DNA from: a virus
Direction: 5' to 3' (one strand)
Length of the DNA: 50,201 nucleotides
Virus record (IMG/VR): IMGVR_UViG_3300008107_004148
Coordinates: 1 to 50,201 of that record
Both the position numbers and the translations under genes were made by a program. This document shows positions 11 to 11,581 of the stretch, piece by piece; the first letter of the stretch is position 1, and the number at the start of each line of letters is the position of its first letter. The notes below the pieces were generated by a model. The model made no database searches. It had not been told where the DNA came from and saw only the letters and a list, made by a program, of their open reading frames with translations.

Positions 11-141
11 CCCGTATTGGTCCTGGTTGGCACATTAAATCAATTTAATTACGACCAACCACTTGTAGCGTTAACGGTAGCGCACTTGACTCTTAATCAA
101 TGAGGTGTGAGTTCGAATCTCACCGGGTGGACCAATACGGG
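11..141 (+). repeat. 13-bp inverted repeat enclosing a tRNA-Lys gene
   Basis: CCCGTATTGGTCC at 11-23 is the exact reverse complement of GGACCAATACGGG at 129-141. The right arm contains the 3' CCA of tRNA-Lys(CTT) and the first bases of tRNA-Lys(TTT). Between the arms, GGTTGG (25-30) can pair with CCAACC (55-60), and ATTAAAT (34-40) with ATTTAAT (43-49), forming a long hairpin that reaches into the first two bases of the tRNA at 59. The precursor RNA therefore has a fold that competes with the tRNA fold, possibly a processing control or the remnant of a duplicated tRNA end. The repeat is seen directly; its role is inference. Confidence 0.7.
59..134 (+). tRNA. tRNA-Lys (anticodon CTT)
   Basis: Complete cloverleaf with encoded CCA. 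Acceptor CCACTTG pairs with CGGGTGG including two G-T pairs. D-stem is GCGT/GCGC. The anticodon loop CTCTTAA gives anticodon CTT. The T-arm is GTGAG-TTCGAAT-CTCAC and the discriminator is A. The outermost anticodon-stem pair (C-T) is mismatched. First gene of the tRNA cluster; the window starts too close upstream to show its promoter. Confidence 0.93.
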
Positions 142-214
142 AGTATGGTGAAATGGTTATCACAGCAGACTTTTAATCTGCCAGTTCCGGGTTCGAGTCC
201 CGGTGCTCCTACCA
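139..214 (+). tRNA. tRNA-Lys (anticodon TTT)
   Basis: Cloverleaf of 76 nt with encoded CCA. Acceptor GGGAGTA pairs with TGCTCCT, the anticodon stem GCAGA/TCTGC encloses loop CTTTTAA, and the T-arm is CCGGG-TTCGAGT-CCCGG. It follows the first tRNA-Lys after only four bases. A phage with AT-rich codon use plausibly gains from two lysine tRNAs reading AAG and AAA. Its CCA (212-214) also pairs with downstream sequence in the structured RNA that follows. Confidence 0.95.
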
Positions 215-342
215 TAGATAAACACACTTTCAATCTGAATTGACAGATACAAACAACCAAGGGGAGCCTCTGGGTTCATCCAGTTTCATCCTGAATTGAC
301 AGGAACAAGGTTGTAAGGGGAGCCGAGTGTGTTTTTCTATGG
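212..342 (+). ncRNA. Unassigned structured RNA with a duplicated motif
   Basis: Lies between tRNA-Lys and tRNA-Arg and has no coding potential. The outer helix pairs 212-217 (CCATAG) with 337-342 (CTATGG) and 220-229 with 325-334 (ten pairs, two possible wobbles or better). Inside it are hairpin TCTG-AATTGA-CAGA (234-247), helix CAACC (254-258) with GGTTG (309-313), hairpin CTGG-GTTCAT-CCAG (270-283), and hairpin TCCTG-AATTGA-CAGGA (289-304). The same hexaloop AATTGA and the same ten-mer AAGGGGAGCC (259-268 and 315-324) occur twice in the same order. Helices with differing stem sequences but identical loops suggest selection for structure. I do not recognise a known riboswitch or ribozyme consensus. 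Confidence 0.6.
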
Positions 343-10965: not shown

Positions 10966-11056
10966 TATACTATACAGTGGTCTTTTAATGACGTTCACCC
11001 CACTTTAAATACTCTGCATGTCATCAAACTTGCTACCTACAAAAAGGAGACTAGAG

Positions 11057-11581
11057 ATGGCAAAATATCTTTCAACAAAAACTTATGGCAATGACAGAGG
11101 TCTGTCATGTTGCTTTAGACAATGGCGTAGTACACATTCACACTGTTCGTTACTACACGGATACTCAATTGGTATCAAATTAATCTTTGAATCAAAAACA
11201 CTAGATGATCGCAACTGGGTTATGGACTTTGGTGGACTCAAAGCATTCAAAGAGTGGAGTGAATGGCAATTTGATCACACTACTGTTATGGCTTTAGATG
11301 ATCCTCATCTCCCAAAGTTTAAGGAACTTGCTAAGTTGGGTAAACAAGCTGAAGGCGGTGTATTGGATTTGCGTCTAGTAGAAGCTGTTGGATGCGAAAA
11401 ATTTGCTGAACTGGCATATCGCACAATGAATGAAATACTAGAAGCATACAAAGAAGGTCGTGCTTGGACTCATCCAGACGGAAGAGTATTTGAAGCACGG
11501 TATCCTGTTGGTGCTGGTGTTCGTCTACGTTCAGTTGAAGTGTTTGAACACGCTGGTAACTCTGCTACTTATGAGGGTTAA
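11057..11581 (+). CDS. queD: QueD-like 6-carboxytetrahydropterin synthase family protein
   Basis: The 174-residue product has the family's catalytic cysteine spacing C30-x3-H34-G, the MDFGGLKAFKEW motif, and FDHTTVM with catalytic H74. The family converts 7,8-dihydroneopterin triphosphate to carboxytetrahydropterin (queuosine/7-deazaguanine route) or pyruvoyl-tetrahydropterin. The usual Zn-binding HGH is HGY here and the N-terminal ligand histidine is displaced (RQWRSTHSHC), so this is a divergent branch. The ATG at 11057 has AAAAAGGAGA at a good distance; an upstream ATG at 11018 overlaps the leader. No QueC or QueE gene is in this window. Confidence 0.8.
   Translation: MAKYLSTKTYGNDRGLSCCFRQWRSTHSHCSLLHGYSIGIKLIFESKTLDDRNWVMDFGGLKAFKEWSEWQFDHTTVMALDDPHLPKFKELAKLGKQAEGGVLDLRLVEAVGCEKFAELAYRTMNEILEAYKEGRAWTHPDGRVFEARYPVGAGVRLRSVEVFEHAGNSATYEG

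Follow-up and report, generated by a model that had tools for sequence, protein, structure and literature searches.

A strongly folded stretch begins at the very 3' end of a viral tRNA-Lys gene; we examined what kind of RNA it encodes and how this RNA relates to the tRNA in front of it. The window, that is the whole stretch of DNA analysed, is a 50,201-base virus record of IMG/VR. Eight of its proteins were scanned and include phage proteins such as tail fibre proteins, PhoH and a clamp loader; ARAGORN places the last part of a tRNA array at 59-897. The last gene of the array, tRNA-Thr(TGT) at 821-897, lies on the strand opposite to the other six tRNAs, and a QueD-like 6-pyruvoyl-tetrahydropterin synthase is encoded at 11018-11581. 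An earlier note, made from the letters alone, had read the stretch at 212-342 as a structured RNA with a duplicated core. This part of the reading stood: the fold beats shuffled sequences, compensatory changes are found and one-module copies occur naturally. What it had missed is that the outer helix is anchored at the CCA end of the tRNA and that many unrelated interiors occur at this one place.

Folding of positions 205-350 led to an MFE of -51.2 kcal/mol (z -4.55), with 0 of 200 shuffles as good. The two hairpins with identical AAUUGA loops on different stems, which the earlier note had described, are present, and AAGGGGAGCC follows each of them exactly as claimed (259-268 and 315-324); with one mismatch allowed it has four matches in the window against 0.96 expected, a count that is weak evidence alone as 4/100 shuffles also reach four. 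The proposed helices exist as well, with corrected sizes: the outer helix, given as ten plus six pairs, consists of 7 bp, a U.U mismatch (219/335) and 10 bp, the hairpin stems P2a and P2b have 5 bp each, which for the first is longer than the TCTG/CAGA named, and the cross-helix CAACC/GGTTG is really the 6-bp helix ACAACC/GGUUGU (253-258/309-314). A hairpin (270-273/280-283) and a junction pair (266-286) are parts that had not been noted before; the single-sequence fold pairs 270-283 differently from the P3 of the alignment, with GGGGAGCC partly used. The outer junction runs P1 - UCA - P2a - ACAA - P4 - AAGGGGAGCC and the inner junction P3 - UUUCA - P2b - ACAA - P4 - AAGGRGAKCC. As the two orders match, with P3 replacing P1, the element consists of one three-way junction in duplicate; the copies meet at P4 and are related by pseudo-two-fold symmetry (Table 1). 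An additional U230-G322 pair, invariant in the copies, could form.

Table 1. Parts of the twin-junction element and the preceding tRNA, in window positions
Feature	Position	Strand	Evidence or remark
tRNA-Lys (anticodon TTT)	139..214	+	ARAGORN; Rfam tRNA 67.2 bits; 3'-CCA 212-214 opens the outer helix
P1 5' arm (CCATAGATAAACACACTT)	212..229	+	fold; 9 outer-helix pairs changed on both sides, position 8 included
P1 position 8, U.U mismatch with 335	219	+	unpaired in 16/26 copies; mismatched in 57/71 cassettes
Junction strand UCA, outer junction	230..232	+	alignment
P2a hairpin AUCUG[AAUUGA]CAGAU	233..248	+	fold; invariant in 26 copies
Junction strand ACAA, outer junction	249..252	+	alignment
P4 5' strand ACAACC	253..258	+	fold; alignment: one C-G to U-G change
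Junction strand AAGGRGAKCC, inner junction	259..268	+	266 (K) co-varies with 286 (N)
P3 hairpin CUGG[GUUCAU]CCAG, in P1's place in the inner junction	270..283	+	alignment reading; one pair changed on both sides
Junction strand UUUCA, inner junction	284..288	+	alignment
P2b hairpin UCCUG[AAUUGA]CAGGA	289..304	+	fold; one pair C-G / U-G / U-A
Junction strand ACAA, inner junction	305..308	+	alignment
P4 3' strand GGUUGU	309..314	+	fold and alignment
Junction strand AAGGGGAGCC, outer junction	315..324	+	exact repeat, alignment
P1 3' arm (GAGTGTGTTTTTCTATGG)	325..342	+	fold and alignment

An exact pattern of the first module retrieved 18 viral stretches and a looser pattern 63, of which, by reading of the stretches, 43 are the element and 20 chance matches; the 43 include repeated assemblies of one and the same phage in several cases, and the alignment was built from 26 distinct copies with two modules. 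In these copies pairing is kept in 97.3% of the structure cells and falls to 32-45% when the partner is slid by one to three columns. Changes on both sides were detected at 12 pairs (63 cells), and neither number was reached by any of 500 shuffles, which give 20.3 cells. The interior is nearly invariant and P1 varies with compensation (nine outer-helix pairs, including position 8), and the junction pair 266-286 appears as G-U in 11 copies, U-G in 11, U-A in three and unpaired in one. As P2a does not vary at all and P4 shows only one C-G to U-G change, compensation supports neither of them. Pairs with changes on both sides lie in the outer helix (nine pairs), the second hairpin (one pair) and P3 (one pair). 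Homologues breaking the pairings were looked for among the 26 copies and not found. Model R1 finds the element in 39 of the 39 records searched, all chosen as carriers (34 in the two-module and five in the one-module form, the latter at 75.1 to 25.8 bits), with 86 of the 120-183 candidates scored in each of the four largest records.

Further scans added little to this set. The pattern TCACNCTGAATTGACAGNG led to six stretches, five of them already included, and the sixth, L161, is not an element of this kind; a broad pattern gave at least 119 stretches, and a structural filter over all collected loci left 20 distinct sequences, among which L072 and L097 were rejected on reading. None of 15 stretches matching a looser stem pattern in viral contigs was real. 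BLAST of the element against 50,697 phage records gave no clear copy (15 weak matches, best E 0.1): the match in Vibrio phage phiKT1024 is limited to 29 bases from the 5' arm and the first hairpin and lies between reading frames, and in crAssphage cr56_1 (L160 1501-1525) 24/25 bases match the second hairpin only (R1 15.9 bits, E 0.086), in a gap beside an endonuclease gene. One exact pattern run over 84,980 species genomes had two matches, both read as chance.

In agreement with the earlier note, the element matches no family of Rfam 15: the only hits in the window are to tRNA, and up to E 5 none falls within 212-342. The same search showed no known intron or tRNA-like element, and neither ARAGORN nor Rfam calls a tRNA or degenerate tRNA within 215-347. 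In the openly licensed PMC literature we found neither the element nor CCA-anchored cassettes described. Tandem riboswitch aptamers (e.g. glycine) likewise combine two similar folded modules in a single RNA; unlike these, the element lies between tRNA genes and not upstream of a regulated reading frame, and no Rfam match to them was obtained. The purine strand AAGGRG could presumably pair with the anti-Shine-Dalgarno sequence, and by eye we took the region to resemble helix 45, which would make the element a mimic of the 16S rRNA 3' end or a Shine-Dalgarno decoy; we hold both to be extremely unlikely. Mimicry was rejected because local alignments of four modules with E. coli 16S, 23S and 5S rRNA were matched by 18 to 159 of 200 shuffled sequences in each of 12 comparisons, and a decoy would at most be a weak rival. 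A tandem conserved core that is borne by phages and stands where cargoes are diverse would also suit a mimic of a toxin-antitoxin or defence RNA, the two repeats binding two nuclease subunits. ToxI repeats are laid out head to tail, whereas the units of the element are nested via P4 and are no simple head-to-tail repeats; moreover, Rfam gives no match to a type III or any other antitoxin RNA. Even with the precedent of pseudo-ToxI, phage-borne repeated RNA units reported to neutralise ToxN (PMC3475682), we hold such a mimic to be very unlikely.

The module is a real unit, as natural one-module copies show. They fall into L001/L018 (R1 75.1 bits), L048/L051/L059/L062 (47.6 bits for L048/L051) and L064 (25.8 bits, E 1e-4, the weakest). 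In L001/L018 the form may perhaps have come from a deletion between the AAGGGGAGCC repeats; in the other two groups the letters of P1 are quite different. At 226-319 of L064, a 16-base direct repeat (ACCAAATTTGATACAA at 226 and 304) flanks the element, its first copy overlapping the CCA of a tRNA-Leu, a possible insertion footprint. At the place of P4, self-complementary octamers are found in L064 (UUCUAGAA) and L048 (UUCGCGGA, with two G-U pairs), and cofold energies predict a dimer gain of -10.4 and -10.9 kcal/mol, respectively, compared to -5.2 kcal/mol for L001. From these two cases only, the prediction suggests that single modules may pair in trans. The two-module form would then be a covalent dimer and the whole an RNA-only oligomer like GOLLD and ROOL, the one-module forms dimerising through P4, and GOLLD does occur in the tRNA arrays of two carriers (L032 7933-8393 and L050 999-1464, both on the minus strand). 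We nevertheless consider an oligomer rather improbable: the two independent octamers were picked after the fact and one of them needs two G-U pairs, exchange of P1 strands accounts for part of the predicted gain, and L001/L018 are without such an octamer. GOLLD and ROOL, described as structured RNAs of phage tRNA islands with unknown function (PMC12286853), are also far larger, with hundreds of bases and another sequence and fold, and the element has no Rfam match to them.

In the window, P1 starts exactly at the 3'-CCA of tRNA-Lys(UUU) and spans 18 positions from 212. By our own assignment of contexts among these related copies, 15 of the 26 start at a CCA (window included), most often that of tRNA-Lys(UUU), five lie behind another cassette and six elsewhere; in L021, L032 and L040, ARAGORN calls no tRNA at the CCA where P1 starts. 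Position 8 of P1 is mismatched in 12/15 copies at a CCA, in 4/5 behind a cassette and in 0/6 elsewhere, and the resulting contrast (16/20 vs 0/6, Fisher 0.0009) is weaker than it looks as the six copies elsewhere represent two P1 lineages. When all 417 distinct tRNA ends of the window and the 43 loci chosen for the element were scored, 33 had a helix with score ≥14 running from the CCA. With the anchor moved by -40 to -10 or +20 to +60 there was none, with +100 there was one and with shuffled tails one; anchors within about 10 bases of the CCA catch parts of the same helices. At score ≥13, 35 CCA-anchored interiors of many kinds were obtained.

The twin junction is one of many cargoes found within such helices. 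A scan with one exact pair of arms gave at least 120 stretches, and over all collected loci 111 distinct interiors in 82 clusters from 134 loci, counts that include a few wrong-strand readings and are less clean than those from the 71 contexts below. The same arm letters enclose many interiors, and some loci hold two or three cassettes with differing interiors. Among the 120 arm-fetched loci listed, Lys(UUU) precedes 64 of the 91 distinct tRNA-cassette units, Gln(UUG) 14 and Glu(UUC) two, and Lys(UUU) accounts for 77 of the 1682 distinct tRNA genes in the background; no cassette follows Lys(CUU), though 30 such genes are present. As this preference is drawn from exact arms and shared lineages, its p-value is not to be taken literally. 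A less biased scan used only 25 bases of one tRNA-Lys(UUU) allele ending in CCA and again led to at least 120 stretches, five matches too near the locus end being left out. In at least 97 distinct contexts (tRNA-Lys(ttt) called by ARAGORN in 90, nothing in seven), a CCA-anchored helix of score ≥12 was present in 77, from which six with tRNA motifs inside were dropped to leave 71; no helix reached score 12 in 20 contexts, or 26/97 with the dropped ones counted in. Shuffled tails and anchors at +40 gave no helices in these 97 contexts, and the helix was found in 59 of 81 loci that our other scans had not met. Of 70 records matched by BLAST, five from cultured phages were inspected (Vibrio phages V09, nt-1, F86 and VH7D and Acinetobacter phage vB_AciJM_313); in each, tRNA-Lys is followed by a gap that holds no CCA-anchored helix.

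The 71 interiors among the matches listed form 46 sequence clusters, and the twin-junction element fills three of the 71. Position 8 is mismatched in 57/71 cassettes (A.C 42, C.A 10, U.U 4, C.C 1), and the remaining P1 cells comprise 1152 Watson-Crick, 94 G-U, 6 A-C and 9 other combinations. This excess of G-U over A-C outside position 8 indicates that the helix functions as an RNA with the same sense as the tRNA. The window shares the marks of the class, namely a P1 of at least 16 positions (mostly 18-20) from the CCA, the usual mismatch at position 8 and location on the tRNA strand. As a group, the 88 cargo interiors folded are only slightly more stable than shuffled sequences (mean z -0.63), with eight of them below -2. 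A T-loop-like GTTCRANYC was seen in 7/88 interiors compared to 0.5% of shuffles, and some cargoes may descend from tRNAs. BLAST of the L024 and L022 interiors found no named phage.

Alternatively, the cassettes might be mobile or recombining DNA, their arms serving as recombination or homing sequences and the interior as a passenger. Many interiors within the same arm letters would fit this, as would the direct repeat around L064 and the relation of the carriers. A clamp loader was identified in 12 of the 32 carrier records, with three identical (the window itself and two near-identical relatives), five at 57-60% and four at 34-38% identity, and the core and arms of the window and of L014 are near-identical, with three differing sites in the 95-base core, despite only 37% clamp loader identity. 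In 10 distinct tRNA-Lys contexts the mean pairwise identity is 69% for the tRNA (lowest 45) and 91% for the element core (lowest 79). Judged from these sequences, the cargo is common to distant phages. No empty site was available for comparison, as the five loci found by the window's neighbouring protein were all 100% identical in that protein. On the other hand, each record has one element copy (R1, E ≤0.01) except L010 with two; exact scaffolds are single in 13 of the 14 records with a match, though some loci hold more than one cassette; the tolerance of G-U and not of A-C points to selection on one-strand RNA; and the arms change with compensation instead of being fixed repeats. A passenger cassette in this strict sense is distinctly unlikely, whereas exchange of cassettes between phages by ordinary recombination is likely and compatible with an RNA function.

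The anchoring at the CCA would also suit a lid acting in cis, where P1 hides the CCA and keeps the tRNA-Lys inactive or protected until the interior, as a sensor, signals opening or cutting. Besides the start of P1, the association of the position-8 mismatch with a CCA or behind-cassette position and the strong preference for Lys(UUU) and Gln(UUG) speak for it. However, the interior persists without a tRNA directly upstream (L002, L028, L054 and others), behind another cassette (L007, L014, L042, L050, L052) and behind a tRNA-Lys remnant (L021), the long P1 would form without ligand binding, and sensing for a single switch hardly accounts for dozens of unrelated interiors at the same tRNA. In L021, L293 and L321, only the 3' part (T-arm and acceptor) of tRNA-Lys precedes the cassette and no tRNA is called; there the cassette has survived the tRNA or moves together with part of it. 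Freeing a working tRNA can therefore not be the only use of the helix. The remnants speak for a cargo with a use of its own, and because of them we slightly lowered our estimate for the lid, which is unlikely, and slightly raised that for the passenger cassette.

The overall best explanation, with a probability of about 0.4, is that the element is a small non-coding RNA released from a tRNA-Lys precursor via P1. It would be made as part of the phage tRNA transcript, and as P1 starts at the CCA of tRNA-Lys(UUU), tRNA and element would form one precursor in which P1, with its recurrent wobble-like defect 8 bp from the outer end, acts as a processing handle. That cutting in P1 frees the tRNA 3' end for CCA trimming and releases the inner RNA has roughly an even chance. 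Each junction consists of P1 or P3, a UNCA strand, the AAUUGA-loop hairpin, an ACAA strand, the shared P4 and the AAGGRGAKCC strand, and for the inner RNA to present two copies of one recognition surface the odds seem about balanced. Against the explanation as a whole stand the weak folding of the interiors as a group, the 26 of 97 tRNA-Lys contexts with no helix or dropped, the six copies that have neither a CCA nor a cassette before them, the tRNA-Lys remnants, the missing clear copy in the BLAST of phage records and in the one exact-pattern scan of species genomes, and the five cultured phages with no such helix. A protein encoded at 42629-43204 matches a PHROG (E 4.8e-10) of a phage kinase annotated as inhibitor of host transcription and described as raising RNase III and lowering RNase E activity, a match that would matter if RNase III cuts P1.

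In phage T4, too, the tRNA cluster holds small stable RNAs, rnaC and rnaD (species 1 and species 2 RNAs), with rnaD annotated directly behind tRNA-Arg and rnaC behind rnaD; we know of no function for either. They differ from the element in that no common motif was seen and no CCA-anchored helix of score ≥10 is present. Homology to them was dismissed after inspection of the sequence and a search of L065 with R1, which gave no match at E ≤10. Although a phage tRNA-island RNA of unknown function is an already known heading, the combination of fold and handle appears to be new, and none of T4 rnaC/rnaD, GOLLD and ROOL has it by the tests made.

What the released RNA might do is suggested by its neighbour. 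The PARIS nuclease AriB cuts tRNA-Lys and the tRNA-Lys of T5 resists (PMC11455837), PrrC cuts tRNA-Lys(ttt) (PMC10264068), and phage tRNAs are now reread as counter-defence in both. The tRNA next to the element is by its anticodon of the same type as the PARIS-evading tRNA-Lys; the known evasion works by changes in the anticodon stem-loop (PMC11455837) and not by a 3' RNA cassette. A hypervariable site beside a tRNA attacked by PrrC and PARIS, together with a cargo found in distant phages, led us to a decoy or inhibitor: the cargo may, at odds well below even, bind or mislead a host factor, an anti-defence role which we infer only from the link to tRNA-Lys, the target of PrrC and PARIS. More doubtful is the general form of this idea, that in phages with large tRNA arrays the 3' end of tRNA-Lys(UUU) is kept as a hypervariable locus for RNAs, where the A.C-defect helix holds one of dozens of exchangeable small RNAs, each against another host factor, with the twin junction as a two-site binder. 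If so, tRNA replacement and RNA-borne counter-defence would come from one precursor, and if the RNAs are made and released, there would be a large unmapped set of phage RNAs. The signature of the class is simple (a helix starting at the CCA with a mismatch at position 8) and can be searched in any virus collection. Even if the anti-defence role is wrong, a helix that captures the CCA raises the question how these tRNAs mature.

Other RNAs were observed in the same surroundings. A longer interior (about 170-200 bases) anchored at the CCA, with TTACATGAA and GGCAAGTAATGTGG as shared stretches, recurs in L021, L024 and L015 behind Ile and Glu tRNAs, and L050 has a looser relative behind a Leu tRNA. 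L050 and L197 each carry a cassette behind a CCA end whose motif looks like that of tmRNA. Permuted tmRNA was called by Rfam at L021 2777-3297 (minus strand) and L038 3601-3888 (plus strand) and by ARAGORN in L026, L037, L038 and L040; the betaproteobacterial match of the L038 tmRNA is a weak hint to the host. In the window itself, a second structured stretch at 584-720 between tRNA-His and tRNA-Phe (MFE -36.1, z -1.97, 9/200 shuffles as good) has a closing helix UGUAGUA/UACUACA close to the CCA of tRNA-His and is perhaps another cargo RNA.
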